Below, piece by piece: positions 3,725 to 58,677 of a stretch of DNA of 64,000 bases. The notes below the pieces were generated by a model, which made no database searches, was not told the origin of the DNA, and saw only the letters and a list, made by a program, of their open reading frames with translations. The stretch comes from Trichocoleus desertorum NBK24 (lineage in GTDB: Bacteria; Cyanobacteriota; Cyanobacteriia; FACHB-46). Within the stretch, counting starts at the first letter, position 1; each line of letters starts with the position of its first letter. Location: the NCBI RefSeq assembly GCF_030409055.1, contig NZ_CP116619.1, positions 4,751,128-4,815,127 on the forward strand, read 5' to 3'. Position numbers and translations under genes: made by a program.

Positions 3725-3809
3725 GGAGAGGTGGCAGAGTGGTTGAATGCGGCAGACTCGAAATCTGTTTTGGGGCAACTCAACGGGGGTTCGAATCCCC
3801 CCCTCTCCG
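3725..3809 (+). tRNA. tRNA-Ser (CGA anticodon)
   Basis: The acceptor stem GGAGAGG pairs with CCTCTCC. The anticodon stem encloses the loop CTCGAAA, giving anticodon CGA (serine, codon UCG). A long variable arm typical of serine tRNAs follows, then the T arm GGGGGTTCGAATCCCCC. The 3' CCA is not encoded. An integrase gene begins about 125 bp downstream on the same strand, so the 3' end of this tRNA is the likely attachment site of the element. Confidence 0.96.
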
Positions 3810-3856
3810 TTTCAGTTAGCCAAGCTAACCTTTGATTTGTTCAGGATGCGTCTACT

Positions 3857-24547: not shown

Positions 24548-24563
24548 TTCCCCAATTGGGGAA
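24548..24563. repeat. AATT-centred palindrome TTCCCCAATTGGGGAA (copy 3)
   Basis: An exact copy 10 bp past the stop of the 121-aa gene. The paralogous gene at 46846 also has this palindrome right after its stop, so it travels with the module. Confidence 0.85.
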
Positions 24564-30477: not shown

Positions 30478-30804
30478 ATGCGGACAGGGGGAGGGTTCAA
30501 GTTATTTGGAGAGGCGCTGTTTGCGTTTGCGCTAGGGCGTTGGTTCACCACCACATTCTTTGACTTTTTCTGGTCATCTATTAGCGCGATCGCTCTCATC
30601 CTGATTGTGTTTGTGATGGGCTTCATTTGGATGAGCTGGACTGCTGAAGACTTGGTAGCAGAAAAACTCAGGATGGAAGGCTGGAGACTGAAGTCTCACC
30701 TCTACGTGTTGAGTGGAGCGTTTGCATTTGGAACCCTAGGCAGCGTCATTCAATGGATTGCCTACACAGTTATCCCTTGGGCTGAAGTGCAGGGGTGGCT
30801 ATGA
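30478..30804 (+). CDS. Integral membrane protein (108 aa)
   Basis: AGGGGGATTT precedes ATG 30478. Three hydrophobic stretches (about 6-22, 25-46, 73-95) are visible. It is coupled to the FtsK gene by ATGA overlap, so it may anchor or form part of the same membrane complex. No family is recognised. Confidence 0.75.
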   Translation: MRTGGGFKLFGEALFAFALGRWFTTTFFDFFWSSISAIALILIVFVMGFIWMSWTAEDLVAEKLRMEGWRLKSHLYVLSGAFAFGTLGSVIQWIAYTVIPWAEVQGWL

Positions 30805-33750: not shown

Positions 33751-33754
33751 GTGT

Positions 33755-33770
33755 TTCCCCAATTGGGGAA
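33755..33770. repeat. AATT-centred palindrome TTCCCCAATTGGGGAA (copy 4)
   Basis: An exact copy in the gap directly after the operon terminator. Confidence 0.85.
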
Positions 33771-33833
33771 AAGCCCATGAAAAAACTCCCCCAACCGAAG
33801 TCAGGAGAGTTGATGAAGGGTAACTGTTGAAAC

Positions 33834-36861: not shown

Positions 36862-37686
36862 TTAGTCGAGTAGACTCAGCGCTTCATCGTAAAGATCTTC
36901 TGGAATCGCATCCTTGGCGGCTTCAAGTACTTTGGCAAGCATCTGACTGAGTTGGAGCGATCGCTGTTTTTCAACTGCCAGCTCACCCTCCAGACCATAA
37001 ATCACCTGAGTTGTCTGGCCTACTTTGGTGCCAGTGGTGAACGGCTTGGGTTCGGATTTTTGAGGGGGAGGGGTGTCTTCTGGCTCAATCTCACTCAGCA
37101 AGAATGGTTCGGGTTCGTCGCTTCCTTCCACTTCACAGAGCGCGATCGCCCCTTCAGCTTTGGTCACCGTGACTGTTTTGCCGTGGTGTGGATGATCCTC
37201 GTCTACCACCACAACTTCCCGACCAGGGTAAAACTTCTCTTCTGGTTTAGCCTTGGCGGTCGGAGATTTGTGCTCAGCAACAATCTCTCTCGCCTTGGCA
37301 TGGGTGACTCGTTCACCAGATTCAGCTAGGGCGATCGCTTCTTGACGTGCTTCTTCCGGAGTTGAAGGGGAGGATAGTAAATAGAGGGCAGAGGGGGCAA
37401 ATTCCGAAATTTTCGGAATTTGGTCAAAGCTGCGAGCTACTCGCATCAAATTGCCAGCAGTATCATGAGTCCAGTTGAACTCTGCCCCAAGCCACTGGAG
37501 CCAGTGCCCATGCCCCAGCCGGGTCTTGACTTCAATTAGCTTTTGGCCGATTTCAATAGTGTTTTGAGCATTGCGATTAATTAAGTCCTTGATCTCGCTC
37601 GTGCGCTGTTGAACTACTACTCGCTGCTCCAGATCAAGTGCGCTGTAATCGAACTGCTGAAGAATCTCTACTGCTGTCGTTGTCAT
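36862..37686 (-). CDS. DUF3102-family protein (274 aa)
   Basis: Residues about 20-115 (NAQNTIEIGQKLIEVKTRLG, HGHWLQWLGAEFNWTHDTAG, NLMRVARSF) match the DUF3102 pattern found in phage and plasmid proteins near ParB and replication genes. A KOW-like stretch follows (FYPGREVVVVDEDHPHHGKT), then a coiled-coil end. GAGGG lies 7 bases before ATG 37686. It may work with, or compete with, the larger KOW/ParB-like protein at 7285. DNA binding is inferred. Confidence 0.8.
   Translation of the reverse strand: MTTTAVEILQQFDYSALDLEQRVVVQQRTSEIKDLINRNAQNTIEIGQKLIEVKTRLGHGHWLQWLGAEFNWTHDTAGNLMRVARSFDQIPKISEFAPSALYLLSSPSTPEEARQEAIALAESGERVTHAKAREIVAEHKSPTAKAKPEEKFYPGREVVVVDEDHPHHGKTVTVTKAEGAIALCEVEGSDEPEPFLLSEIEPEDTPPPQKSEPKPFTTGTKVGQTTQVIYGLEGELAVEKQRSLQLSQMLAKVLEAAKDAIPEDLYDEALSLLD
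37402..37422. repeat. 21-bp palindrome identical to array unit 4
   Basis: AATTCCGAAA and TTTCGGAATT flank a single central base. It is the exact reverse complement of 46754-46774 in the palindrome array. Here it lies inside the DUF3102 gene. Confidence 0.8.
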
Positions 37687-37688
37687 CT

Positions 37689-38603
37689 TCAAACCCTCTG
37701 CCTATCTTCATTTTGCCCATTTCTGAGGCGTTGCAAACCTTCCTCAATCCAGAAGCGTACTTGTTCTGGAGTGGTGTCCTGTTGGCGGGCGATCGCCTCA
37801 TCTGACATTTGCTTGAAAAATCTTTCCATTACACAGGTGCGGTAAGGGTCTTTCAATTTGCCCAGCCGCTTGTACATCTCCTGTTTTAGCGCCTCTTCTT
37901 CCTGTTGATCCTCTGTCTCTTCCTCGCTCAACTGCACATCATCCAAGCTTACCAATGGCTTACGAGCTACGGCCTGCTGCGTCCAAGTCCATCGTGCTTT
38001 CGACACTCCGAGGGATTCGGCTATCTTCTCCTCTGATACATTGCGACCTAACGCAACCATGCGGCGTTGCACCTGACGCACCTTGGAAGCCAGCTCAATG
38101 GAGCGGCGGGGAATCTTAACGTGACCCCAATGGTCGCGTAGGAAATGCTGAACCTCACCCTGGATGTAGGGCACTGCAAATGAGCTAAAAGCTACGCCTT
38201 TACTGGGGTCATATCTTTCAACTGCTTTGAGTAGACCGATACGAGCGAGTTGAATTAAGTCTTCTAGAGGCTCTGCACACTGACCGGACATCCGGTGAGC
38301 CACTTTGAGGGCAAGGCGATCGTTCTGCTGGGCGATTCTGTTGCGTTCTGCAATTGTTAAAGCTTTACGTTGTGGCGGAGTTTGTTGCTGGGATTGCTGA
38401 GCACTCTTGCGGTGTTGTGCCCAAGCTCCTTCTACAGTCCGTTTGTTGCCAGTATTGCTGCTATTCATTTCAGGAACTACCTTACCTGTCTCGTGTGGCG
38501 TTTGTGACGATTCAGGTGGGGCGTTCCTGTCTCTATCTAAAGTAGTACCCTTGAACGGAAAAGCTCCCGACCCGTTGAAACACGGACATTTCAGGCGCTT
38601 CAT
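37689..38603 (-). CDS. Phage-borne sigma factor, SigF/B-like
   Basis: Region 2 (LEDLIQLARIGLLKAVERYD, GVAFSSFAVPYIQGEVQHFL, DHWGHVKIPRR), region 3 (KVRQVQRRMVALGRNVSEEK) and region 4 (YRTCVMERFFKQMSDEAIAR, TPEQVRFWIEEGLQRLR) are all present, as in group 3 sigma-70 factors. It would direct RNA polymerase to phage or cargo promoters. The first 90 residues are polar and begin MKRLKCPCFNGSG, not typical; the start could lie further in (ATG 38468). It is the head of a three-gene minus-strand unit. Confidence 0.9.
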   Translation of the reverse strand: MKRLKCPCFNGSGAFPFKGTTLDRDRNAPPESSQTPHETGKVVPEMNSSNTGNKRTVEGAWAQHRKSAQQSQQQTPPQRKALTIAERNRIAQQNDRLALKVAHRMSGQCAEPLEDLIQLARIGLLKAVERYDPSKGVAFSSFAVPYIQGEVQHFLRDHWGHVKIPRRSIELASKVRQVQRRMVALGRNVSEEKIAESLGVSKARWTWTQQAVARKPLVSLDDVQLSEEETEDQQEEEALKQEMYKRLGKLKDPYRTCVMERFFKQMSDEAIARQQDTTPEQVRFWIEEGLQRLRNGQNEDRQRV

Positions 38604-38761: not shown

Positions 38762-39721
38762 GTGAGCAATCTAATCCCCCAACAGCAACCCAGCTCTTTT
38801 TTCCATGTGCATGAGCGTGACATTCTGGCCGAACTATTGGCAGACAAACGCTCAGAAAATACGCGCCGTGCCTATGCAAAAGACTTGAAGGACTTCTTCT
38901 TGTCAGTCAGTGGACATGAGCCAAGCCCTCAACTAATCACTGAATTCCTGAAGCTAGAGCGGTTTACAGCGATCGCCCTGGTTCTCCAGTACAAAGCCCA
39001 GCTTATTGAGAGGTCACTAGCTGAAGCGACGGTGAATCGACGACTGGCAGCCATCAAGTCACTCGTCAAGTACGCTCAGAAGATTGGCAAGTGCGAGTGG
39101 AGCTTAGAGGAGGTGTCCGGAGAGAAGGCCAAAGCCTACCGAGATACCAGCGGAGTAGATCGAGATAGTTATCGGGCAATTTTGGAGGGGTGCGATCGCT
39201 CAACCCTGCAAGGTCAGCGCAATTACGCCATCCTTCGATTGCTTTGGGATAACGCCTTACGTCGGGGTGAGGTGGTGCAGTTGAATGTCTCTGACTTCGA
39301 TTCGGAGGCGCGATCGCTCACTATCCTGGGCAAAGGGCGAGGTACTCAGAAGGAGCGGGTCAGTTTGTCTGCTGCAACAGTGGAGGCGATCGAGCTTTGG
39401 TTGCAGCATTTCCCCAATTGGGGAAAAGATAGCCCTCTATTTATTGCCTTGGATAACGCACACCACGGACATAGGCTCACTGGCAACGCTATCTACAATC
39501 TGGTATTTGAAGCAGCAAAGAGAGCAGGTATCAAGAAGCGGTTCTCTCCCCACCGTTGCCGACACTCTTCAATCACAGCGGCCCTCGACATAACGGGCGG
39601 GAATGTGCGGGAGGTCAAGAAGCTCAGTCGTCATGCCAGAACAGACACACTCATGATCTACGATGACAACCGCATCAATGCTCAACAAAAGGTAACTGAC
39701 TTGTTGTCTGAAATGCTGTGA
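38762..39721 (+). CDS. Second tyrosine recombinase, XerC/D-like
   Basis: In this 319-residue protein the catalytic set is visible: NALRRGEVVQLNVSDFD (Arg), SPHRCRHSSITAALDITGG (His/Arg), LSRHARTDTLMIY (His and nucleophilic Tyr). The N-terminal SAM-like part has RSENTRRAYAKDLKDFF. GTG 38762 follows AGGAAAC. With a separate integrase at the left end, this one may resolve multimers or invert DNA. It is followed by an HU gene whose product could assist it. Confidence 0.9.
   Translation: MSNLIPQQQPSSFFHVHERDILAELLADKRSENTRRAYAKDLKDFFLSVSGHEPSPQLITEFLKLERFTAIALVLQYKAQLIERSLAEATVNRRLAAIKSLVKYAQKIGKCEWSLEEVSGEKAKAYRDTSGVDRDSYRAILEGCDRSTLQGQRNYAILRLLWDNALRRGEVVQLNVSDFDSEARSLTILGKGRGTQKERVSLSAATVEAIELWLQHFPNWGKDSPLFIALDNAHHGHRLTGNAIYNLVFEAAKRAGIKKRFSPHRCRHSSITAALDITGGNVREVKKLSRHARTDTLMIYDDNRINAQQKVTDLLSEML
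39410..39425. repeat. AATT-centred palindrome TTCCCCAATTGGGGAA (copy 5)
   Basis: An exact copy inside the second recombinase gene, encoding HFPNWGK. Confidence 0.85.
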
Positions 39722-42442: not shown

Positions 42443-43468
42443 CTACCCAAAGTAATGAAGCAATTTGGCAATTTCGGGTAGCAACTTGTTAGTTTCTTCG
42501 ACCAGCTTGACACTCACAGGTAGTGACGCAACCGTTCCTCTAATAATTTTGACTGCTGTACCTGTCATTTTTTGTATTACCCCTGTCTTAGGGTTTTTTC
42601 CAGCCTCTGCCAAGACATTAATCTGCTCTAATGCCTCTGCCTTGTCTTCAGGTTTTAAGCTTGGTTCATTCTCGATCGCTGCCTGAAGCTGCACTAATTT
42701 GTCTGCTAACTCTGTTGATTCCGACGTATTTAGCTCTCTCAGTTGATGAATAGTATTTGTGACAACACCGCTGATATTGCCACCTGCTACAACACCGCTA
42801 ATATCAGAACCAATCATATTGCCGTTGGCATCACGACCGGCCTGAACGTTAGTTGAGTGATCGCTTGTCATGCTAATACCTCCGTGGTGTATAGCGCCTA
42901 TAAATTTCTGAATGTTGTAGGTTGCGTTGGCCGCAACTCGCCTCTCTTCTCTAGAAAAGGTCATTCCCTCTTCTAAGATTCCGTCTTGCTCCAACTTTAT
43001 GGACCAATTGAGAACAATATCTCTAACAGCCTCTAGAATTCCATGTATTTGCGAGCGATCAACATGTATGGCTGGCTGAAGAGGGACGTTCATACCTTGC
43101 ATCAGCAACGCTTCCATTTCTTTAGAAAGAAATATTAGGACAGTTGAGCCATCTCTTATGGCTAGCGACTGAATCTCACTAATAGGCTGATGCATGGGAC
43201 AGCTAGACAAAAATTCATCAAGATCTGAAGAAAGCATGACTGGTACCCAACCGTGATACGGATTTCTTGCTTTCACCTGTCCTTCGACAAACCGATACTG
43301 AGGTAGTCTTGAGCCGTCAGAGTACCCACTAAGTTCTAATGCTGCCCATTCTTGAAATTCCTGAATACTGAGTTTCTTTGCAATAACTAGGGCTTTACGC
43401 AATAGAAACAAAACAGAGCTCGATGGATCAAGGGCATCTCTTTGTAACTCCAAAACTAACGAATTCAT
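42443..43468 (-). CDS. AbiTii-domain protein with beta-repeat centre
   Basis: The N-terminal 60 residues (LVLELQRDALDPSSSVLFLL, RKALVIAKKLSIQEFQEWAA, LELSGY) match the AbiTii domain of abortive-infection proteins. The central stretch near 205-240 (NGNMIGSDISGVV, AGGNISGVV) is a short Gly/Asn beta repeat, and the C-terminal part is helical (EDKAEALEQINVLAEAG) with a hydrophobic end. Known relatives are linked with phage defence. It is the first clear cargo gene in the terL-portal gap. A defence role for this copy is inferred. Confidence 0.8.
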   Translation of the reverse strand: MNSLVLELQRDALDPSSSVLFLLRKALVIAKKLSIQEFQEWAALELSGYSDGSRLPQYRFVEGQVKARNPYHGWVPVMLSSDLDEFLSSCPMHQPISEIQSLAIRDGSTVLIFLSKEMEALLMQGMNVPLQPAIHVDRSQIHGILEAVRDIVLNWSIKLEQDGILEEGMTFSREERRVAANATYNIQKFIGAIHHGGISMTSDHSTNVQAGRDANGNMIGSDISGVVAGGNISGVVTNTIHQLRELNTSESTELADKLVQLQAAIENEPSLKPEDKAEALEQINVLAEAGKNPKTGVIQKMTGTAVKIIRGTVASLPVSVKLVEETNKLLPEIAKLLHYFG

Positions 43469-45314: not shown

Positions 45315-46520
45315 TCATCGACTCTTGACTAGACGGTTTCCCGTCCCCGCCAGACCGTCTCCACAGGCATTTTCTAGAACCGTGCGCCCCACGGCTCTGT
45401 TTCTAATCACTTGAGCGCTAGCAACATCTCGCGGCTTGGAAGACCCACAGTTCTCGCACTCGTGCCAGCGATCTTTCAAGACTTTGCCGACTGTTATGCC
45501 ACAATCTGGACATTCCTGGCTAGTGCCACGGGCATCCACTTCCTGGTAAGCCACACCGCGTTTGAAACAGACCCAAGGCAAGATTCGATGCAAGAATTGT
45601 CCATGTCCCGCATCGAGCATGTGTTTGCCGAGAAACCCACGGCTCAATCCGACCAGATTTAACTGCTCCACCGCAATGGTTTCGCCTCCATTACAAAGAC
45701 GATGAGCCGTCTTGAAGTGGAAGTCTTTGCGAGTGCGGGCAATTCGCTCATGCAGTCTTGCTATTTTCTTCTGTGCCTTCCGCCAATTGTTCGACCCGAT
45801 GACTTTGCGCTTCAATCTGCGTTGCAGCAATTTAAGCTCGCGTTGCATGTCTACAAAGAATCGCGGTCGCTCGATTTCTAATCCGTCTGACGTGGAAAGA
45901 AAGTATTGCAGTCCAACATCAACGCCGACAACATGTCCACTGAGGGGGATATCAGGAACGTTAACCTCTGCCTGAAATATCAGCAGCAAATAAAAGCCCG
46001 ATGCCCGTTTTAGAATCTTTGCCTGTTTAATGTTGAATCCGTCAGGCGCAGGACGGGATTGCCTGAACTTGACTAGTCCCAAAGAAGGTAGCTTGATCAC
46101 GCCTTGCCCCAACGGATTCTTGCTCAGTTGGGGAAAAACAAACGATCGCATAGCTCCCTGCTTCTTGAAGCGAGGAAAGCCGAGTTTGCGGTCTTTCATA
46201 TCCTTGAAAGCTTTATCCAGCCTCTTTAAGACTTGCTGCAACACCTGAGCATTTACTGAAGCGAGTCTCGGATATGCCTTCTTGGCTTCAGTGAGTGCTT
46301 TGCATTGCACCACATAGCCTGGATAAGGCGTATCTACGCTCATGATGTACTCACCACGCAATGAGCACGCATTGACCGGACACTTACGCGAAGCAATCCA
46401 GTCCTTGCGCTCTCTCAGTGCATAATTCCATACCGAAGTACAAACATCCAAGATGTGATTTATCTCGTCAATTTGGGATTGGGTAGGAATCAGCTTGTAC
46501 TCATAAGTCAGTGTCAGCAC
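45315..46520 (-). CDS. tnpB: TnpB RNA-guided nuclease, no TnpA partner
   Basis: In this 401-residue protein the RuvC-like residues are in place: D201 (VGVDVGLQ), E285 (IAVEQLNLVG) and D365 (KPRDVASAQ). A zinc finger CPDCGITVGKVLKD...CENC (C337, C340, C355, C358) lies between the last two. The N-terminal HTH region is normal (YEYKLIPTQSQIDEINHILD). So it should be able to cut DNA guided by its omega RNA. No tnpA transposase lies next to it, so it depends on one elsewhere or is now immobile. Confidence 0.93.
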   Translation of the reverse strand: MLTLTYEYKLIPTQSQIDEINHILDVCTSVWNYALRERKDWIASRKCPVNACSLRGEYIMSVDTPYPGYVVQCKALTEAKKAYPRLASVNAQVLQQVLKRLDKAFKDMKDRKLGFPRFKKQGAMRSFVFPQLSKNPLGQGVIKLPSLGLVKFRQSRPAPDGFNIKQAKILKRASGFYLLLIFQAEVNVPDIPLSGHVVGVDVGLQYFLSTSDGLEIERPRFFVDMQRELKLLQRRLKRKVIGSNNWRKAQKKIARLHERIARTRKDFHFKTAHRLCNGGETIAVEQLNLVGLSRGFLGKHMLDAGHGQFLHRILPWVCFKRGVAYQEVDARGTSQECPDCGITVGKVLKDRWHECENCGSSKPRDVASAQVIRNRAVGRTVLENACGDGLAGTGNRLVKSR

Positions 46521-46845
46521 AACTTCAATTCCTTGCTGAGATAAGCATCAAACAAATAAAGGACTGAACAGAGGGAGCGATCGCCCTAGCAAAATCCGCA
46601 AATTGCGGAATATGGAAGATTGAAAGCTAGCGATCGCCCCTCATTCAAATTCCGAACAGTTCGGATTACGGAGAGCTGAGGCTAGCGATCGCCCCTACAA
46701 AATCCACAAATTGTGGAATTCGAAACCTGAGAGAAGCGATCGCCCTCTGCCCAAATTCCGAAAATTTCGGAATTCAAACTGAGCAGAGAGCATCCCTGCA
46801 AAATCGGAAAATTTCCGCTTTTGAGCTTTTCCCCAATTGGGGAAA
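46521..46845. mobile_element. Gene-free stretch after tnpB, holding the left end and a palindrome array
   Basis: The first 60 bases would include the left end of the tnpB element, which I cannot delimit. The rest is the array of palindromes described at 46595-46844. No coding region is seen. Confidence 0.4.
46595..46844. repeat. Array of covarying palindromes, about 54-bp unit
   Basis: Five single-base-centred palindromes: TCCGCAA-A-TTGCGGA (46595), TCCGAAC-A-GTTCGGA (46651), TCCACAA-A-TTGTGGA (46703), a 21-bp one around TCCGAAA-A-TTTCGGA (46754-46774) and CGGAAA-A-TTTCCG (46805). TTCCCCAATTGGGGAA closes the row at 46829. Centres are 56, 52, 54, 47 and 25 bp apart. The first four each follow GCGATCGCC at a similar distance. 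Arms differ between units but always pair, and the centre AAT is kept in four of five. Confidence 0.85.
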
Positions 46846-47211
46846 CTACAATCCGATGAATTCAGCGCAATCTAAAGCAGCGATTTGCTGAACCATTGCA
46901 GCTCTGGCCCCTATCTTCGCGACAGAATATTGATTTCTAACTAGCTCTAGCTCAACCATTGCCTTGGCTTTGGCTGCGATTAATTGGCCGAGGTTATGGA
47001 GTGCTTCTTGATAACTGGGATCGCTTTGTAAGAGTTCAAAGCGCACAGCCTTACGTTGGGGGTCGTTCTTGTAGTCGCCAAAAGCAATTTGAGCATCGAC
47101 TCTGCCTTCTATTGAAGTGATGATGCGCTTGGCTTGAGTGATCTGGAATTCGAGATCGTTGACGAGAGTGGAAGCTTGGGCAATAGCTTGGGGATAGTCT
47201 TGTAAATTCAT
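46846..47211 (-). CDS. Coiled-coil protein, module copy 2 (121 aa)
   Basis: MNLQDYPQAIAQASTLVNDL and QIAFGDYKNDPQRKAVRFEL align end to end with the 121-aa product at 24173 (same length, about 60 percent identity by eye). The palindrome TTCCCCAATTGGGGAA lies right after its stop, as it does in copy 1. Function unknown. Confidence 0.8.
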   Translation of the reverse strand: MNLQDYPQAIAQASTLVNDLEFQITQAKRIITSIEGRVDAQIAFGDYKNDPQRKAVRFELLQSDPSYQEALHNLGQLIAAKAKAMVELELVRNQYSVAKIGARAAMVQQIAALDCAEFIGL

Positions 47212-47476: not shown

Positions 47477-47866
47477 TTAGAAGGGGCAGCCATCTTCAGG
47501 CACCCAAGTCTCGTTAATTTTCCAGCAAGCATCGAAGTGATTGCGGATGATCCGGGTGATGAAGGCAAAGCGATCGTTGTTCGTTACGAGGTCAACTAGG
47601 CGCTCGTTGCCTTGACAGTCTTCGAGCTGGATGATTAAGCGGGTGGATTGCTTGGTGATGGGGCGATCTTGATCCATCACTGAGAGGTAGGTGTAGCCAT
47701 CTACTAGAGAGAGGCTGTCGATTTTGGCAGGGGCAATGGAACGGACTTGCTCTTCTAGGTAGGTTTCGAGTTCTAGTTGAGCAGTTGCTTGAATGCGACC
47801 AGAGCCACGCTCTTCTTCAGCAAAAACAGGCGCGATTGACTCGACGCGATCGGGCGTGTATACCAT
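47477..47866 (-). CDS. ERGSGR-motif protein (129 aa)
   Basis: The N-terminus has FAEEERGSGRIQATAQLELE and TYLEEQVRSIAPA, elements also seen in the 105-aa product at 23461 but in other order. The remaining 80 residues form an alpha/beta domain (STRLIIQLEDCQGNERLVDL, ITRIIRNHFDACWKINETWV). It is the first gene of the duplicated module here and faces a divergent XRE gene. Function unknown. Confidence 0.72.
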   Translation of the reverse strand: MVYTPDRVESIAPVFAEEERGSGRIQATAQLELETYLEEQVRSIAPAKIDSLSLVDGYTYLSVMDQDRPITKQSTRLIIQLEDCQGNERLVDLVTNNDRFAFITRIIRNHFDACWKINETWVPEDGCPF

Positions 47867-47955
47867 AGTGATTAAGACCTTTAATTAAGGGTTGTCTTAG
47901 AGAGAAGGCGGTTTCTGATTGGCGTCGGGACCGCCTTTTCTCTATGCTTATTATG

Positions 47956-47987
47956 CGTCAACATGTTGACGGTGTCAATTAGTTGAC
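47956..47987. promoter_or_regulatory. Operators between divergent module and XRE gene
   Basis: CGTCAACATGTTGACG (47956-47971) is a perfect 16-bp dyad, and GTCAATTAGTTGAC (47974-47987) is a second with the same GTCAA half-site. A single half-site GCGTCAGCAAG lies near 48011. These are likely bound by the next gene's product. Confidence 0.75.
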
Positions 47988-48050: not shown

Positions 48051-48269
48051 ATGGACATGAAACAACTTCGTGAACGCCTCGGCCTCCGTACCGTTGATGT
48101 CGCTTCTCGCCTAAACGTAGGGGAATCAACAGTACGCAATTGGGAGCACGGTCGTTCCGTACCCCGATTTGAAATCGTTTCTGATCTACTGCGGCTGTAT
48201 CAATGCAGTTTTGAGGAGCTAGATCAGGCGGTTAGAGAGTCCAAAGCACAAGCAGGAGGCACAGACTAG
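48051..48269 (+). CDS. XRE-family regulator (72 aa)
   Basis: MDMKQLRERLGLRTVDVASR, LNVGESTVRNWEHGRSVPRF is a complete XRE helix-turn-helix. The short tail ends SKAQAGGTD. It lies to the right of two GTCAA dyads and so probably controls both directions. It would be the third repressor-type switch in this window. Confidence 0.88.
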   Translation: MDMKQLRERLGLRTVDVASRLNVGESTVRNWEHGRSVPRFEIVSDLLRLYQCSFEELDQAVRESKAQAGGTD

Positions 48270-48350: not shown

Positions 48351-49229
48351 ATGAATATCCTATCCGACTCCGTACTCGTGGAGTCTAAATCCGCACGTGA
48401 AAACCAGCTCACGGCACTCAGCCACGACCGCGCGACTGAAGTACTGAACAAAACTAAAGCTCTGTTCTTTGCCTTGTGGCAAGGAGTAGGGCTTGCAACT
48501 ACAGAGCAAGTAGCAGAGTTCTATGAGGTCTCTACAGAAAATGCTCGGCAACTCGTCAGAACTCATCGCGATGAGTTTGAAGCAGATGGACTGAAAACCT
48601 TAAAGGGTAAAGCTCTCAATGAAGTGCGTGATCTCTTATCACTCACTTCTAAAAGCGTGAATGCCACCATCTGGACTCCTCGCGCTGCTCTGCGTCTCGG
48701 CATGCTGCTGCGGGACTCCGAAATTGCTAAAGCGATCAGAACTTCTTTGTTGGATGCAGTAGAGCAAATTATTCCGGCTCTTGCTCCCACTCCTGAGGCT
48801 CCTGCCCTCCCCTCGCCCGATCGCTTCACGCTACTCAAGGAAGCGGTGGAAATTGGCAACCAGCTTGGCGGCTTCGATGACCGTCAAAAGATGCTGCTCA
48901 AAGATCAACTGATGAATCTGCTCATGAAAGAGCGGCTACTGCCTGAAAGTTCATCTGTATCAGTCTTATCTGCTCATTCCGCAGCAGAACTCCAAGAACG
49001 GATAGAGATGCCCATCTCAGATCGTTGCCTCGACCTCGGCTATCGTCCCAACACCAAGCAACTGCTCAGAATCGGTCAAGTTGCCGCTGCCTTCTATCGT
49101 GGTCGCCACGGTCGCCCTCCTCAAAAGCGTGAGCAGTTCGTTGGCGGCACCACTCGCATGGTCAACGTCTACACCGCTGACGACCTCAGCATCCTTGACT
49201 CAGCTATTCATTCTGTGATGGGGGACTGA
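48351..49229 (+). CDS. Phage antirepressor-like DNA-binding protein
   Basis: The first 150 residues (LFFALWQGVGLATTEQVAEF, YEVSTENARQLVRTHRDEFE, IWTPRAALRLGMLLRDSEIA) match a common cyanobacterial family that resembles ORF6N/Rha-type antirepressors. A C-terminal domain (GYRPNTKQLLRIGQVAAAFY, GGTTRMVNVYTADDLSILDS) follows. A role in controlling phage genes is inferred. It starts an apparent operon of mutually overlapping genes to 52488. Confidence 0.75.
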   Translation: MNILSDSVLVESKSARENQLTALSHDRATEVLNKTKALFFALWQGVGLATTEQVAEFYEVSTENARQLVRTHRDEFEADGLKTLKGKALNEVRDLLSLTSKSVNATIWTPRAALRLGMLLRDSEIAKAIRTSLLDAVEQIIPALAPTPEAPALPSPDRFTLLKEAVEIGNQLGGFDDRQKMLLKDQLMNLLMKERLLPESSSVSVLSAHSAAELQERIEMPISDRCLDLGYRPNTKQLLRIGQVAAAFYRGRHGRPPQKREQFVGGTTRMVNVYTADDLSILDSAIHSVMGD

Positions 49230-50496: not shown

Positions 50497-51275
50497 CCCT
50501 CCCCCCTGAGTGGGGCTTACCGAAGTTCCACTTCAACCAGCCCGTGAAGCTGAAGCGCAATGGCGACATCGGCACGATTGTGGGATTGCAATACGAGCGC
50601 GGTGGCCCTGCAAAGGGATGGCACTACGAACTAGAGCTGCAACCCGATAGCGAAGCGTGGCAACCTGACTGGCTCGAATGTGCCCGTGAAGATGACCTAG
50701 AAGCGGTTGAAACGGTGAGTTGCTCCTGTGAGTTCGTCCCTGCCGCCTTACCTCTGTCCCGTGACGCTCGGATTCAAGCCGTGCTCTCTGGCATCTGTCG
50801 CACCCTGCACCAACCGCTAGAGCCTGCCGAGTACTGCCAGCGCTGGGTGTTCCATCCTCTGCACCTCCAGAACTATAAGCAAGCGTGCGATCAAGCCCTC
50901 GCTCAGGCTTGCGGTCTGCTGCCAACTGAAGTACAGCTCTGGGGTAAGGAATGGCGCAAACGTCCGGGCTACGTGCCCTACCTGCTGCGCCTAGCCGATA
51001 CCGTCAAGCGCTCTCAAGCTTTGGGTGTCTGCGCTTCCAAGCTCAAGAGCCAAATTTCAGAGCTGAGCCTTGCCCTGCCAGGGGGTATCCCTCGCCCCCG
51101 CTTCCACTTCTGGCAGCAAGTACGGATTGCAGATGAATGGAACGAACACGGCACCATCGTCGGCATGGAGTATCAAAATGGCTGGTGGTACTCCATCGAA
51201 CTAGACCCAGACACGCCTCATAAATTCATTGAACCCGTGCGTCACAGCTTCGAGACGGAGGTGCAACCACGATGA
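50484..51275 (+). CDS. SH3-like repeat protein, two copies (263 aa)
   Basis: One unit opens the protein (LPKFHFNQPVKLKRNGDIGT, GLQYERGG, WHYELELQPDS) and another closes it (PRPRFHFWQQVRIADEWNEH, GMEYQNGWWYSIELDPDT). Between them about 100 helical residues with AEYCQRWVFHPLHLQNYKQA are unlike the rest. The two-barrel plan could bind nucleic acid or a protein pair. Function unknown. Confidence 0.72.
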   Translation: MHSLTLPPEWGLPKFHFNQPVKLKRNGDIGTIVGLQYERGGPAKGWHYELELQPDSEAWQPDWLECAREDDLEAVETVSCSCEFVPAALPLSRDARIQAVLSGICRTLHQPLEPAEYCQRWVFHPLHLQNYKQACDQALAQACGLLPTEVQLWGKEWRKRPGYVPYLLRLADTVKRSQALGVCASKLKSQISELSLALPGGIPRPRFHFWQQVRIADEWNEHGTIVGMEYQNGWWYSIELDPDTPHKFIEPVRHSFETEVQPR

Positions 51276-52324
51276 GCACCTCCCCTAACCTGACTTACCT
51301 CAAGCTCTGCAAAGAGTACGTCCAAATCACCCAGCGCAACTACTGCGCCGCTAAAATCCTCGCCATCATCGAGGGTTGGCAGGCATGGAAGGCCAAGCAC
51401 AAGCTTGACGACTGGGTGAGGCTGACCCTAGAGCAAATCCGAGAACATCTGTTTGAGGAATACAGCATCGAAACCATTCGCCAAGCACTCGCCAAACTGA
51501 CCAACAAACTGCAACTCCTCAAACGGCGCAACAACCCAAAGGCCAAATACGATCGCGCCTACCAGTACCAACTAAACCGGGAAGCTATTGATGCAGCTCT
51601 GATCCAAAAACAGGCTAAAACCCTGACTCCATCTCATTTCACAAATCTAGGAGATGATGCCTCAGATTCTGGGAGTTCATTTCCTAGTTCAGGGGTCATC
51701 AACCCCCAAACCAGTGGTGATCATATAGAAATAGATTCCACTCTAGACACCTCAATAAACACCACAACAACGGAGCCACCCACCCTCCCTGTTGTTGTGG
51801 GTGTAGAGAAATCTGAAGATCCCAAGCCAGTAAGCGCCCCCCTTCCTGTTAAGTCTCATCCTGTTCTAGAAGCATTTGGGTCAGAAGTGGAACAGGTTGC
51901 AGAGGACGACTATTCCGCCGCTGCTCAAACCGCGATTTTTGAAAAAATTGAACAAGCAGGATTTCCGCTCACCTCACCTTTGAAGGCTGAAGTTCTAGCC
52001 GCTCCTCTCCAGGTGGTTACAGATGCTCTGGCTGCTGCCGTTGAGTATCGAGACAGACATGAAGTCAGAAATCCGATCGGCTTGCTCAGGGACGCGATTA
52101 GCCAGTGCTGGAAGCTAGGAGGAAGTGAGCATCCCAAAGCAACCAAAACCGCAGAACCAGGCTTCAAAGAATGGTTTGACCTGGCTCATCAGTTGAGGTT
52201 GGTGACTGCTAGCCAGATGATTGGAGGGGAGCAATACATCCTGACTAATGATGACGAGTGGGAGCCTTGGGACTTCTTAGCGGCTGCTTTTCCGATCGCA
52301 CGGCTCAGGCAGATGCTGGCTTGA
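51272..52324 (+). CDS. Second replication-initiator-like protein (350 aa)
   Basis: The N-terminal 95 residues (YCAAKILAIIEGWQAWKAKH, TLEQIREHLFEEYSIETIRQ, LAKLTNKLQLLKRRN) form a winged-helix region like that of the 499-aa protein at 11713. A low-complexity Ser/Thr linker follows, then a domain (FEKIEQAGFPLTSPLKAEVL, LAAAVEYRDRHEVRNPIGLL) common in cyanobacterial plasmid and phage replication-type proteins, and a helical end. A second initiator-like gene suggests that this block once belonged to another element. Confidence 0.65.
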   Translation: MSTSPNLTYLKLCKEYVQITQRNYCAAKILAIIEGWQAWKAKHKLDDWVRLTLEQIREHLFEEYSIETIRQALAKLTNKLQLLKRRNNPKAKYDRAYQYQLNREAIDAALIQKQAKTLTPSHFTNLGDDASDSGSSFPSSGVINPQTSGDHIEIDSTLDTSINTTTTEPPTLPVVVGVEKSEDPKPVSAPLPVKSHPVLEAFGSEVEQVAEDDYSAAAQTAIFEKIEQAGFPLTSPLKAEVLAAPLQVVTDALAAAVEYRDRHEVRNPIGLLRDAISQCWKLGGSEHPKATKTAEPGFKEWFDLAHQLRLVTASQMIGGEQYILTNDDEWEPWDFLAAAFPIARLRQMLA

Positions 52325-52752: not shown

Positions 52753-53811
52753 ATGCCTGGTAGCCAGCAACCGTCACTGATCATTACTCGTCCAGAACCG
52801 ACTATCTTCCGCTTTATCAAAGGCGATGCACGCAAAATAAAGGGCATTGAGGCAAAAACCATAGATTTAGTATTAACATCCCCTCCCTATTGGCAACGGC
52901 GTGATTATGGGCACAAGCACCAGCTAGGGCAGGAGAAAACACCTGCGGAATATGCTGAGGCCCTTGCTCAAACCGTTGATTCTTGGCGACCGCTTCTTCG
53001 CCCTCATGCATCAGTATTTATTAATATTGGCGATACCTACAGAGACGGTTTTTTATCAGGCACTCCAGCAAGATTTGAGCTTGCAATTAGGGATTTGGGC
53101 TGGAAAGTTGTTAATCATATTGTTTGGGCAAAAGACAATGGAATGCCAGAACCCAAACGAAACCATAGGTTAGTCAGTCGCCATGAATCCATCCTGCACC
53201 TAACTCTGGGACGAAACTATTATTTTGATATTCACGCACTAACCCAATATCTTGAGCGATCCTCAAATCCTGGCGACGTGTGGCAGTTTTATCACTCCCG
53301 AAATACGTCAAAGCACCTTGCTCCCTTTCCCCCCGATCTCGTTCACCACATCCTTCTGCTGGCTTGCCCCACTTGCGTATGTTCCGTGTGTGGCCAACCC
53401 TTTACCCCTATTCTTGCTCCAACCTCAGCCCTTAATCGGTCTAGACCTCAAGCGCGTCGTGCGCTTGAGATTTATGAGAATTCAAACCTTACTGAAGAGC
53501 ATCTTGCTGCCATCCGCGCTGTCGGCATTTCTGATGCCGGGAAGGGACAACAAATTCAGAAGGGTGCAGGTAAAAACTCCAAAAAAATTCAACAACTCGC
53601 ACAAGAGGCGAAAGAAATTTTGGGTGGGTACTTTCGTGAATTTACGTTCGCCCCAAAACATCAAGTCGGGTGGAAAACCTGCGACTGTCAAGCCCCTACT
53701 CACCCTGGTACGGTTCTTGATCCATTCGCAGGCTCAGGCACGACCCTTTCTGCTGCCAAAGTGCTAGGCTTTAATGCAATTGGGGTAGACCTTAACCCCA
53801 TCCAGCATTAG
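52753..53811 (+). CDS. DNA methyltransferase of the TSPPY type (N4C/N6A)
   Basis: VLTSPPYWQRRDYG (T42-Y46, catalytic motif IV) comes before LDPFAGSGTTLSAAK (S-adenosylmethionine motif I, about 325-333), the beta-class order; TSPPYW points to N4-cytosine. Between them lies a target-recognition region with a Cys cluster (CPTCVCSVCGQPF). VDLNPIQH ends the protein abruptly, without the usual last helix. It would mark host or phage DNA. It lies 20 bp before the nuclease-helicase, so the two likely form one unit, with the methylase giving self-protection. Confidence 0.9.
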   Translation: MPGSQQPSLIITRPEPTIFRFIKGDARKIKGIEAKTIDLVLTSPPYWQRRDYGHKHQLGQEKTPAEYAEALAQTVDSWRPLLRPHASVFINIGDTYRDGFLSGTPARFELAIRDLGWKVVNHIVWAKDNGMPEPKRNHRLVSRHESILHLTLGRNYYFDIHALTQYLERSSNPGDVWQFYHSRNTSKHLAPFPPDLVHHILLLACPTCVCSVCGQPFTPILAPTSALNRSRPQARRALEIYENSNLTEEHLAAIRAVGISDAGKGQQIQKGAGKNSKKIQQLAQEAKEILGGYFREFTFAPKHQVGWKTCDCQAPTHPGTVLDPFAGSGTTLSAAKVLGFNAIGVDLNPIQH

Positions 53812-53831: not shown

Positions 53832-56800
53832 ATGCCAGCTTTCAGCAAAAAAGTACTTTCGCTGTTTCTCCGCACCCGCTGCCAAAAACAACTTCATCTT
53901 TATCTTTACTCAGATCTGGAACGGGATGCATTAAAAATGCCTCCCCGCCAAACAATCCGTTCTGGGCTGGGAAGTGCTGGCAAGGCTGGTTATGAATGGC
54001 AAGACAAAAAGGTAAGTGAGTTAAAAGAGATTTTCGGTGCTGAACACGTTGTTGTCAGCCCTGAATCAAAAGCAGGTCGTCCCGGCAAACTGAAACTTTC
54101 GGAGGAACTGAGTCGGCTTGACCCTTTCCAATTTATTGTTGAAGCTGGCTATGTTGCTGACACTGTCACCTTCCGCGAAGCGATTGGTTTTGACGGCCTA
54201 ACAGACCGTTATGGCAAGACTCTTGATATTGGTGGTGTCTACCCAGATATCATTCAAACGCTTCCTCCCCGAAATTCTGGGACGCTTCCATTTGAAACTG
54301 CCCAACCTGAATACAATTTGGCTATATTACCTGATGGTAGTTTAAGCAAGATTGATGAGGAAGACTGCCGTCTTCGCCTACGAGTAATTGATATTAAGTT
54401 AGCAGCAGATCCAGGGGCAAACTATTTTGCTGAGGTTGTCTATTACTCTATGACGCTCTCAGCTTGGTTGCAGGAGAATGGGCTGGATGACCGATATCTA
54501 GTGGTTGCAACCCCAGCAGTGTGGCCTGGCTCGTATGATGCTTCAAACCTCTCTAAACAGTTCGAAATATGGAATCGTCGAGGACACAAACCTACCGCTA
54601 GTGAACTATCAGCAGCGCTAGAGGAAGATATTGAAATTGCTGCTGTTGATGCCTATGTACCCCGGCTTCGACGCTTACTATGTGAACAACTTCCCACTAT
54701 CCTCAGCACTTCTTGGGAAGACCTACCTTACCACGTCAGTTTCTCTTGTCAGGGATGCGAATTTCTAGGCTATCCGTGGAAAGACAAGGAAGGGAACATT
54801 GCTAACGATGAGAGACATTGCTGGCCTACTGCTGCACGCTGTAATCACCTGTCTAGGATTGCCGGACTCTCTAGTGGTGCAGCTCGCCAACTTTCAACAC
54901 GGGGAGCAATCAGTGATGTGGCATCCCTAGCGAAAGCAGACCATGCAGGAGCAGCCTTTTCAGAACATCAGACGTTACGAGCAAAGGGTGCAATCTATCC
55001 TTATCGCGCGAAATCATTAAACTCAGGAATTGCGGCCGTCATCTTAGATTCTGGCGGAGATGCTTTAATGCCAAGGTGGCCAAACCTCCGCCTCTACATT
55101 TTCGTAGACTATGACTTGAGCAGTGCTATTACTGTTGCATTCGGACTGCGTGCATTCTGGCGTGAACCACTTCCTTTTGGTTCTAAGTTAAAGAAGCAGG
55201 TTAAACGTTGGAATAAAGGAGAAGGGGGTATAAGAGGGTCTCAAGAAGTTTTTCTCGTTGACCGCCGTGACACTATTCGTGAGCGAGAAGAATTTTTGAA
55301 GTTTCTTCATTCCATTAAAAAAATTATGGATGAAGTACGGCAGCAAGACGCCGAAGATGTAGCCAACGGGCGACGTAACAAAGAAGATGGAACAACTGAT
55401 GATAAATCGTCTGTCAGCACTTATCAAATTTATCTGTGGGATGAAGCACAAAAGCGGCATTTGACTCGTTTAGTTAGCCGTCACTTAGCTGCTATTCTTG
55501 GCGACCCTACACTCCGTAATCTTGCTTGGCTTTTCCCTCCACCTGAACTGCTAGCGCGTGCTGAGGAATCTTCTCGTCAGTCTCCCATCACTTTCGTCTC
55601 ATCAGTCGTTCAGAACACGGTTGCTGCTCCTGTTCCCCATCACTTTACCCTTCTTGAGCTTGTCCGTACATACAATAATCGAGGTTTCACAGCCTCAGTT
55701 CATCCGCTTTATCGTGAGCCATTAACCGATTTAGTCCCTAGTGAGCGAATCTATGAATATTGGGATAAGGAGAAGAATGCGTGGTGGAGAGAAGCTGGAG
55801 AGGAAATTGCTGAAACAACTCGGCAGAAACTGCTGGCGTTAGGATCAGTTGCCTCAAGACTTGAAGCAGATTTAGGAAAACTTCTTCCTGAACATCGACT
55901 TGCCGCTCCACCGCTTAATAAACCTCCTAAAACCCCATCTAAACTGTCTCCCCAAGGTCGGCTCTGGTACGAGTTCACTCGGCTCAATGCTGCTCTGCAA
56001 AAGCTTGATATCCATACAATTCAAGCAATGCCTCCGCGCGAACGCGAAGCGCGCTTTAAATCGGCAATCCTTACAGAACGCCTGAATGGAAAAGAGCGGC
56101 AAGAAGCAATTCAGTGCTTACAGCGAACATTGGGTCGTCCCCTTACATCTCTAGGAGAGCTTTTTATTTATAAATTAGCTCCTACATCAGCAGACCTTAA
56201 CGCCCGAGAAGGGGATATAGGCTTCGCTCTTTCACCATTAAATAAGCCAGGTTTCCTTGATCTATCTCCTTACATTAAAGAATTAAAAGACGCTGGTATT
56301 ACAGGTTTTCCTGGAGCTAAAACTATTGCTGATTCAGGTCTGACAGGTGTTTCAATCACTGCCATTGACCGAATACATCATTTCATTGCACTCAAGCCTG
56401 GCATGTTCAATCGTATTAATAGTTTGGAAGCGCTAGGCTGGCTTGATATATCCCAAAATATAATCCTTGATCCAGTTCCACAAGACTTTTTAACCTCAAA
56501 AGTTCAACTTACACTCCAAGCTATTGGCTACCCTGCTAGTGCTACTGCTGATCCAAGGATTTTAGAGACACTGGGCGAGCCAGCATCACAAAAGGGGAAA
56601 GCTTCAGCTGAAACACCAGCTTCACGGATTCTTTGGCAAGCCTCTACCCTTTACGGACAGAAGGTTGAGCGGAATACTGTCAGCCTCCGCAAAGACCTGG
56701 AGTCAAACGATTTTCGTTTGAATGACTCTCAGTGGCAAGCCTGGGAACAGGCATTAACTCAACAATTTGCACTGATTTGGGGACCACCAGGTACAGGAAA

Positions 56801-58241
56801 AAGTTGGACGCTTCGCAATATTGTTCTTGCAGCTGTAAAAGATGCTGTTTCCCAGGGAAAACCATTACGGCTTCTCATTACATCTGGAACCTACACTGCA
56901 ATAGATAACGTTCTACTTGGTGTAGACAAGATGTTAGCCAAATTGCTACCGGAAAAACCTTACTCAATATTCCGTCTACAGAACAACCTTCGCCCAATTC
57001 CAGACAAATTGGCTGCTGACCATGCTGACGTTATTAACGTTCCCTTCGAGAAAAATGTCTTTCCTTCAGAAATCACTCAGTTAACTAATGAACTGAATAA
57101 TCCAACCTCTATTACAGTTGTAGGGGCACCGCCTCACCAGTTGCATAACCTTGCCTGTCTTGGCAAAAAAACGCCAGCTCAGAAGGATATTCGCCGCACC
57201 TGGTCTGATTTTGTAGTGCTTGATGAAGCCTCTCAGCTTGACGTAGCGACATCTACCCTAATTTTCACTAAAGTTGCTGAAAGGGGCAGTGTTGTTCTGG
57301 CAGGTGACGATCTTCAACTTCCTCCTGTCCATCAAGCTGATGCTCCAGACGATCTTGCCCATGTTGTTGGCTCAATCTACAACTATTTTCTCCGTCAACA
57401 CAAAATCGAACCGACTCCACTTCAGGATAATTATCGCTCAAATGAGACAATCGTCGCTTTTACAAGACTAGCTGGATATGATCCAGGCTTAAAAAGTCAT
57501 TCACAATACCTTTCTCTTAGATTCCTTGAACCTATTCCAACCAGCCAGCCAGATGCCTGGCCAGACAATCTTTTCTGGACACCAGATTGGAGCCATTTAC
57601 TTAACCCTGCTCATCCTACGACTTGTTTTATCTACGAGGATGAGTTAAGCAGCCAAGTAAACGATTTTGAAGCTGATGCTATTGCAGCCTTGATTAGTTT
57701 GTTATACGGACGACTCAAACAGGATCTTGCTAATGAGAAGGATTTCAACGGTTCTGTGAAAGTAACCACAGATAGGCTCCACGATGAGTCATCCTTCTGG
57801 AAGTTTGCTGTTGGCGTTGTTACACCTCACCGTGCCCAGCAAAGCAAGATCGTTCAACGACTTCAGATGGTATTTCCACACCATCCTGCTGATAAGATTC
57901 GTGATGCTGTGGACACCGTTGAGCGGTTTCAGGGGCAACAGCGGCAAGTTATTCTTGCCTCCTTTGGTCTTGGAGATCCAGACATGATCCAGAGCGAGGA
58001 TGAATTTCTCTACAGCCTCAATCGGTTTAATGTTCTAGCATCGCGTTCCCAAGCAAAACTTATTGTCTTCACAACTCGGACATTAGTAGATCACCTCTCG
58101 AATGATTCTGATGTTTTGAAGGAGTCCAGATTACTCAAACGCTATGCTGAAACGTTCTGCAATAAAGAACAGCCACTTAACCTGGGGTACCTTCGCCATG
58201 GAAGCCTAGAAAGTCGTCCTGGAGTTATGAAGTATCGTTAG
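53832..58241 (+). CDS. PD-(D/E)XK nuclease fused to SF1 (DNA2/NAM7) helicase, 1469 aa
   Basis: The N-terminal 210 residues have FLRTRCQKQLHLYLYS, VYPDII (D139), LRVIDIKLAADPG (D187, K189) and FAEVVYYSM, the RecB/Cas4-like nuclease set. Cys pairs near 310-345 (CQGCEFLGYP, CWPTAARC) may hold a metal or iron-sulphur cluster. A long middle part is helical. The helicase has GPPGTGKS (about 983), VLDEASQLD (about 1130), GDDLQLPPVH, LQDNYRSNETI, VERFQGQQRQV (about 1363) and NRFNVLASR. Such a protein could travel along and cut unmarked DNA. It starts 20 bp after the methylase stop. A defence role is inferred. Confidence 0.9.
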   Translation: MPAFSKKVLSLFLRTRCQKQLHLYLYSDLERDALKMPPRQTIRSGLGSAGKAGYEWQDKKVSELKEIFGAEHVVVSPESKAGRPGKLKLSEELSRLDPFQFIVEAGYVADTVTFREAIGFDGLTDRYGKTLDIGGVYPDIIQTLPPRNSGTLPFETAQPEYNLAILPDGSLSKIDEEDCRLRLRVIDIKLAADPGANYFAEVVYYSMTLSAWLQENGLDDRYLVVATPAVWPGSYDASNLSKQFEIWNRRGHKPTASELSAALEEDIEIAAVDAYVPRLRRLLCEQLPTILSTSWEDLPYHVSFSCQGCEFLGYPWKDKEGNIANDERHCWPTAARCNHLSRIAGLSSGAARQLSTRGAISDVASLAKADHAGAAFSEHQTLRAKGAIYPYRAKSLNSGIAAVILDSGGDALMPRWPNLRLYIFVDYDLSSAITVAFGLRAFWREPLPFGSKLKKQVKRWNKGEGGIRGSQEVFLVDRRDTIREREEFLKFLHSIKKIMDEVRQQDAEDVANGRRNKEDGTTDDKSSVSTYQIYLWDEAQKRHLTRLVSRHLAAILGDPTLRNLAWLFPPPELLARAEESSRQSPITFVSSVVQNTVAAPVPHHFTLLELVRTYNNRGFTASVHPLYREPLTDLVPSERIYEYWDKEKNAWWREAGEEIAETTRQKLLALGSVASRLEADLGKLLPEHRLAAPPLNKPPKTPSKLSPQGRLWYEFTRLNAALQKLDIHTIQAMPPREREARFKSAILTERLNGKERQEAIQCLQRTLGRPLTSLGELFIYKLAPTSADLNAREGDIGFALSPLNKPGFLDLSPYIKELKDAGITGFPGAKTIADSGLTGVSITAIDRIHHFIALKPGMFNRINSLEALGWLDISQNIILDPVPQDFLTSKVQLTLQAIGYPASATADPRILETLGEPASQKGKASAETPASRILWQASTLYGQKVERNTVSLRKDLESNDFRLNDSQWQAWEQALTQQFALIWGPPGTGKSWTLRNIVLAAVKDAVSQGKPLRLLITSGTYTAIDNVLLGVDKMLAKLLPEKPYSIFRLQNNLRPIPDKLAADHADVINVPFEKNVFPSEITQLTNELNNPTSITVVGAPPHQLHNLACLGKKTPAQKDIRRTWSDFVVLDEASQLDVATSTLIFTKVAERGSVVLAGDDLQLPPVHQADAPDDLAHVVGSIYNYFLRQHKIEPTPLQDNYRSNETIVAFTRLAGYDPGLKSHSQYLSLRFLEPIPTSQPDAWPDNLFWTPDWSHLLNPAHPTTCFIYEDELSSQVNDFEADAIAALISLLYGRLKQDLANEKDFNGSVKVTTDRLHDESSFWKFAVGVVTPHRAQQSKIVQRLQMVFPHHPADKIRDAVDTVERFQGQQRQVILASFGLGDPDMIQSEDEFLYSLNRFNVLASRSQAKLIVFTTRTLVDHLSNDSDVLKESRLLKRYAETFCNKEQPLNLGYLRHGSLESRPGVMKYR

Positions 58242-58677
58242 TGTACTTTGTTGACATATCGAAAAATTGAAGTTTTTACATACTAGGAATTCCAGCGATT
58301 TTGCCCAAAGTAAACAATCATATTTAGAGATTAATTGCTTTAAAATTTAAGCGCTCGAAGTTTTGCAGGGAAAGGCACAGAGTCTAATAAGCTTTAAGTC
58401 CCTAATCCTCTAAATGCGGGTTGTAGTCAGCCAGCGATCGCCTCTTGCACTTCACCCGTGCGATCGCCCCTAACTTTTCCCCAATTGGGGAACGCAACCA
58501 AGTCAGTGAACTGCTGCTCATCCCTGCCAATTGTCTAGAATTCGAACATCTGCTTGCAGTGGCTCTGGGGTTGACTTCCTAGGTCGCAGGGAGTTTTGAG
58601 GACTTATGAAATTCTTTATAACTCACCCAACATTACCTGCGATCGCCTCCAGCGGATGAAGTCTTGCCAGGAATTGT
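58242..58677. other. Gene-free stretch between nuclease-helicase and HEPN-like gene
   Basis: AT-rich at the left, with GCGATCGC sites and an exact palindrome copy at 58477-58492 toward the right. I see no coding region. It separates the two putative defence genes, so they may be transcribed apart. Confidence 0.5.
58477..58492. repeat. AATT-centred palindrome TTCCCCAATTGGGGAA (copy 7)
   Basis: An exact copy in the gap between the nuclease-helicase and the HEPN-like gene. Copy 6 closes the array at 46829. Confidence 0.85.

Follow-up and report, generated by a model that had tools for sequence, protein, structure and literature searches.

Tandem palindromes confined to a cyanobacterial prophage: possible 3'-end RNA hairpins of a leftward early operon

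The DNA analysed here is a 64,000-nucleotide stretch of Trichocoleus desertorum NBK24 (the window; genome positions 4751128-4815127 of a 5.46-Mb single-contig cyanobacterium), and the feature under study is an array of five odd-length palindromes that stands in a prophage between a tnpB gene and a leftward operon. Our favoured reading, held tentatively and at somewhat less than even chances, is that the array closes this early operon at its 3' end with RNA hairpins in tandem, acting as a weak terminator-like or 3'-end-capping element. The position, orientation, pairing, prophage confinement and variable copy number of the array are observed directly; transcription of the array and a role in terminating or protecting RNA are inferred. 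The array and its neighbours are laid out as follows (window coordinates are used unless genome positions are stated).

46595-46609: odd dyad 1, TCCGCAA-A-TTGCGGA, perfect 7-bp arms
46651-46665: odd dyad 2, TCCGAAC-A-GTTCGGA, perfect 7-bp arms
46703-46717: odd dyad 3, TCCACAA-A-TTGTGGA, perfect 7-bp arms
46754-46774: odd dyad 4, AATTCCGAAA-A-TTTCGGAATT, perfect 10-bp arms
46805-46817: odd dyad 5, CGGAAA-A-TTTCCG, perfect 6-bp arms
46828-46845: even palindrome TTTCCCCAATTGGGGAAA, which ends the array and is one of 20 exact TTCCCCAATTGGGGAA sites in the prophage
45315-46520, minus strand: tnpB, with OrfB_IS605 and Cas12f1-like TNB domains
46846-47211, minus strand: 121-aa gene, last in the leftward operon, homologues found
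47477-47866, minus strand: 129-aa gene, first in the leftward operon, copies in other modules
47950-47978, minus strand: promoter-like site (TTGACA, 17, CATAAT) for the leftward operon, a consensus match only

An earlier note on this DNA, made from the letters alone, had described five odd-length palindromes in a row about 54 bp apart, the first four of them behind GCGATCGCC. This description is borne out: the centre-to-centre distances are 56, 52, 54, and 47 bp (span 46595-46817), and GCGATCGCC precedes odd dyads 1-4 and is absent before dyad 5. The arms pair around a single A as the note had it, except that those of dyad 4 extend to 10 bp, longer than noted. The extent it gave, 46595-46844, cuts at its end into the sixth, even palindrome, which directly abuts the stop codon (TAG) of the 121-aa gene. 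Searches of Pfam and PHROG gave no match for the 121-aa and 129-aa genes. The promoter-like site overlaps an operator-like dyad, CGTCAACATGTTGACG, and tnpB, on the far side of the array, shares its strand with the leftward operon. The note had also placed the array between tnpB and the 3' end of a duplicated phage module; the placement is right, and the copies of the module number six.

The pairing of the arms was measured in 19 aligned units of the odd-dyad family (17 distinct sequences). Arm cells are paired in 96.6% of cases against 73.4 +/- 2.7% in shuffles, and 22 cells are changed on both sides against 6.1. Two-sided changes occur at six of the seven arm positions and one-sided (wobble) changes at none. 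The covariation score is 0.555 against 0.139 for shuffles, a value reached in 0 of 500 shuffles. Because the units share descent, the shuffle figures cannot be taken as probabilities, and the contrast is inflated; controls in which the register is slid preserve this relatedness, and they give at most 60.5% paired cells, far below the true register. Only four mismatches are present among the 119 cells, all at the outermost or innermost pair, and there are no wobble pairs. Several of the double changes are swaps of C-G for G-C or of C-G for A-T. The covariation reported earlier is confirmed, and it holds in the homologous arrays. Four odd dyads whose arms reach 7 bp or more lie within 170 bp; in 60 order-1 Markov simulations of the 148.6-kb element the maximum was two. 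In the odd dyads sequence varies while pairing is retained, the opposite of the even palindrome. The centre is A or T in every unit and flips between near-identical copies; for example, units B1 and D1 have identical 34-base left flanks and arms but a different centre base. The left flank is conserved, with CAAAW in 17 of the 19 intergenic units, whereas the right flank is not.

In minus-strand RNA each unit would form a stem of 5-7 bp with an AT-rich loop, followed by WTTTG, the complement of the conserved CAAAW, and together the hairpins would limit read-through from the leftward operon (the 129-aa and 121-aa genes) into the nuclease gene, here tnpB. This arrangement is favoured because of the pairing of the arms, the strand of the WTTTG tract, the bias in U-richness, and the promoter-like site upstream. 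At all eight intergenic sites that have the tract (A, B1-2, B3-5, C, D, F, G, and H, as read from the map of open reading frames, ORFs), the tract is on the same strand as the gene that ends immediately upstream. Read on the strand of the upstream gene, 15 of 20 units (four of the five within the window) have at least four U in 8 nt, against 6 of 20 when the opposite strand is read. The promoter-like site lies 1.1 kb upstream of the array on the same strand and, as a consensus match, could drive the operon. The 301-nt array stretch also folds far better than its shuffles (z of -6.9 on the minus and -6.3 on the plus strand).

Several results weigh against this reading. Intrinsic-terminator criteria as used for Synechococcus include a structure below -10 kcal/mol in 30 nt (PMC13289151), which is found in 5 of 20 units and in one of the five in the window; a single unit of the 20 passes both Synechococcus criteria. 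A terminator scan of the region found 6 where 8.2 are expected from shuffles. The absence of wobble pairs among the variants is odd for selection on RNA, two modules lack any odd unit, one odd unit sits inside a gene, and orientation was judged from mechanically called ORFs. Confidence in the terminator reading is accordingly limited, since the stems are weak, so few units pass both criteria, and the scan is at chance level. On the energy criterion the array is not a formal intrinsic terminator; it is terminator-like in its arrangement.

The earlier note had argued that paired change implies selection on the dyad itself. The covariation is real, but selection is not forced by it. Paired arm change is not proof of selection, because the lack of wobble pairs and a flipping centre restricted to A or T are what template switching is expected to leave. 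As described in two studies (PMC8604942, PMC8794818), template switching between the arms of an inverted repeat homogenises the arms and inverts the spacer. A purely mutational account, in which switching at replication copies arm onto arm and inverts the centre, so that matched arms drift together without function, draws on this documented process, on the complete lack of one-sided changes and wobble pairs among the 119 cells apart from the four mismatches, on the A/T centre and the otherwise identical B1 and D1, and on an array length that varies from 0 to 5 units. Yet outside the prophage no such odd dyads are seen, flank conservation is confined to one side, and the preference for the strand of the upstream gene would have to be a coincidence. 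Prophage confinement, one-sided flank, and strand bias require more than mutation, and we regard function-free self-perfection as unlikely. Under the hairpin reading, the perfect arms would probably be kept by a pairing constraint, aided by template-switch correction between arms. Of the note's two options, a hairpin or a symmetric binding site, the symmetric protein site is the weaker for the odd dyads. Double-stranded sites bound by a dimer that the prophage encodes, forming an array of the operator or partition type with a possible link to the dispersed even palindrome, would suit the regular spacing of about five helical turns, the confinement of both palindrome families to the prophage, and an even palindrome that is invariant in 20 copies and more evenly spread than chance. 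Against this stand arms that vary widely (TCCGC, TCCAC, TCGGA, TCAGA, GTCCC) and always change on both sides, CAAAW conserved on one side only, a place at a gene end and not at a promoter, module control regions with different repeats of their own, and a binding protein that is only putative; we consider such sites rather improbable.

Two further explanations carry much less weight. Mobile extragenic palindromes of the REP/BIME type, moved by a Y1 transposase, are a very improbable source, even though the units are extragenic, 3' of genes and tandem, with two unit types alternating in the array, and the genome has five Y1_Tnp matches. None of the five lies inside the prophage, to which the copies, only about 20 of them, are confined. 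The odd unit within a gene and one of the even palindromes within genes align gap-free to homologues, so these two are not insertions. Equally slight, or slighter still, is the chance that the units are replication-origin iterons for the module initiator protein. Every module encodes a replication-initiation-like protein, and the iterons bound by phage lambda O are imperfect dyads. However, the initiators are 87-93% identical while the units number 5, 5, 2, 2, 0, and 0 with differing arms, and the array is about 4.4 kb from the initiator gene.

The even palindrome behaves differently from the odd dyads. TTCCCCAATTGGGGAA has 20 copies in the genome, all within the prophage, and none in 385 other cyanobacterial genomes. 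The sequence is invariant over these copies, for which reason the even palindrome is the better binding-site candidate and looks like a protein site. The sites are mostly just 3' of genes, with others within three genes, and their spacing is more even than chance (P = 0.00075 for the largest gap, on 22 sites including near matches). In addition to the site at the array, the window contains the following, together with an in-gene member of the odd family.

8099-8118: even palindrome within a 987-aa gene
12019-12034: even palindrome within a 499-aa DnaD-like gene
24548-24563: even palindrome just 3' of the core copy of the 121-aa gene
33754-33771: even palindrome between two convergent gene ends
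39409-39426: even palindrome within a 319-aa gene (recombinase-like by sequence)
58477-58492: even palindrome at the right end of the module 1 cargo
37398-37422: odd dyad of the same family as the array, 12-bp arms, within a DUF3102 gene

Other roles were tried and rejected. The even palindrome is not a terminator, as a U-tract is found on neither strand at 19 of 20 sites. As for inserted mobile elements, the two in-gene copies checked (one even, one odd) align gap-free with homologues in genomes G485 and G461 and are not insertions. Nor are the palindromes operators of the module regulators, since each of the six control regions has different repeats and these, read by eye, do not resemble the palindromes. 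A single TTTCCCCAATTGGGGAAA among the viral contigs (L037:7288-7305) falls in an SPIGE codon run of an ORF that resembles the matching part of the prophage 987-aa gene, with the palindrome at the same position; it is probably a codon coincidence.

The 148.6-kb element is, judged by its ends and gene content, a prophage integrated in tRNA-Ser: it is bounded by 59-bp repeats of the tRNA-Ser 3' end, and it has integrase, terminase, portal, and capsid genes.

3753-3811, plus strand: left attachment repeat, 59 bp, tRNA-Ser 3' end

The second attachment copy is at genome 4903432-4903490. The integrase gene adjoins the left copy; the terminase, portal, and capsid genes lie inside. A 3495-aa gene is read as a putative tape measure from its length and place. 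The prophage also carries an FtsK/SpoIIIE-like gene (30795-32768) and its own sigma factor gene (37689-38603).

Within the genome the exact odd-dyad core, TCCGMAMWKTKCGGA, occurs 10 times, always inside this prophage. A search of cyanobacterial genomes does find the degenerate pattern AAAATCCNNAAWTTNNGGA elsewhere, in 60 of 367 genomes, but matches outside the prophage are mostly not self-complementary, whereas seven of seven here are. The odd dyad is therefore rejected as a host-wide or phylum-wide repeat; host-wide statements rest on pattern searches and a 464-kb stretch. The note's statement that it knew no named repeat of this form agrees with the searches: the array gave no match in same-genus genomes and no BLAST match in phage or plasmid collections, and Rfam reported only a tRNA in the window, with nothing near threshold around the array. 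Multi-copy palindromes of this kind were not found in the stretches scanned of G461 and G511, which hold prophages with similar terminases (G470, G485, and G434 were not scanned), and no such array was found downstream of the 121-aa gene homologues in eight other cyanobacterial contigs. The module initiator protein gave no match in the viral-contig search.

The prophage holds six homologous replication/immunity modules, in both orientations, with about 76-93% DNA identity over matched stretches (genome 4797964, which is window 46837, then 4825731, 4836313, 4854035, 4872589, and 4886324). Module 1 includes these genes.

48051-48269, plus strand: HTH_3 regulator
48351-49229, plus strand: Ant/ORF6N-like gene, Pfam match below cut-off
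51272-52324, plus strand: replication-initiation-like protein, 89-93% identical to the other five copies

Most of the small regulators (HTH_3, HTH_26, RHH_5) are unrelated between modules, and the control regions, read by eye, have six different repeat sets. An array of 0-5 hairpins stands between the leftward operon of a module and its nuclease gene, with 5, 3+2, 2, 2, 0, and 0 odd units in modules 1 to 6. Beyond the palindromes lie tnpB in module 1, HNH genes in modules 2 and 6, LAGLIDADG in module 3, and GIY-YIG in module 4. In module 5 this place is taken by a 234-aa gene that has no Pfam match and precedes an IS4/5 transposase; the 234-aa protein matches the same stretch of G461 as the two HNH proteins. 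Module 6 and its HNH gene are inserted between the tape-measure-like gene and a copy of the 3' end of that gene (genome 4874764-4885251 and 4894999-4895580, L017/L018; 66% amino acid identity), and an even palindrome is found 3' of both copies of this end.

Taken as a whole, the prophage may be a composite of six heteroimmune satellite-like modules, most with a different homing-type nuclease or tnpB, set among virion genes. Its two private palindrome families would then form a cis-acting system, in which covarying arrays close off the junctions between module and nuclease and an invariant palindrome of 16-20 bp, about every 7 kb, serves a prophage-encoded DNA-binding protein. This wider picture is possible but doubtful.

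Upstream of the 129-aa gene, a stem-loop of 13-16 bp (47867-47955) has homologous sites in modules 2-5. Its stem sequence differs per module and pairs in each, its 5' part TAGTGNTTAAGACCTTTAATTAAGGGTTG is conserved, and its predicted energy is -33 to -38 kcal/mol on the plus strand against -20 to -27 on the minus; it is a candidate structured RNA. Near module 1 are an AbiTii-domain gene (42443-43468), an N6/N4 DNA methyltransferase gene (52753-53811), and a 1469-aa AAA-helicase gene (53832-58241), possibly defence cargo.

A single prophage with six almost identical replication modules, whose regulators are mostly unrelated and whose nucleases fall into several classes, would be a notable example of stacked immunity. 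In the array, near-identical copies differ either by paired changes in the arms or by a flip of the centre base, which makes it a clean system for telling selection on pairing apart from homogenisation by template switching. Rho is absent from cyanobacteria, where the majority of transcript ends lack an explanation (PMC13289151); hairpin arrays that are private to a prophage and placed at gene ends are a compact means of testing 3'-end formation and protection in this phylum.

Known systems resemble different parts of this arrangement. Mycobacteriophage stoperators and the KorB operators of RK2 are cases of one invariant site repeated across a single mobile genome. The even palindrome is like them in being invariant, with all 20 copies inside the prophage and none in the 385 other genomes; it is unlike them in being a perfect 16-20 bp even palindrome, placed mostly at gene ends, with only a putative binder. 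REP/BIME share with the array short extragenic palindromes 3' of genes, in tandem and with alternating unit types. According to one study, however, REP elements have more than 100 copies throughout a genome (PMC2817692), and the array family differs in having about 20 copies instead of hundreds, covarying variable arms instead of a fixed sequence, and no linked transposase in the prophage. REP/BIME identity is therefore rejected, with 10 exact core matches and about 20 units in one prophage and no Y1 transposase there; Rfam family membership is likewise rejected for want of a match at the gathering score. The modules recall helper-embedded PICI satellites (PMC10111431) in having regulator, Bro/antirepressor-type, and replication genes among prophage late genes. 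They differ in that six homologous modules occupy one prophage, with a homing-type nuclease or tnpB beside at least five; of the integrase (of one clade) and the AlpA expected of such satellites, neither was found among the module 1 genes scanned (genes of the other modules were scanned in part). Finally, compared with intrinsic (Rho-independent) terminators, the array has weak stems, a short WTTTG, up to five units in tandem at 47-56 bp, and a range restricted to one prophage; it is like them in that hairpin pairing, and not sequence, is kept and in lying 3' of genes, and 15 of the 20 units have a U-tract when the upstream gene's strand is read.
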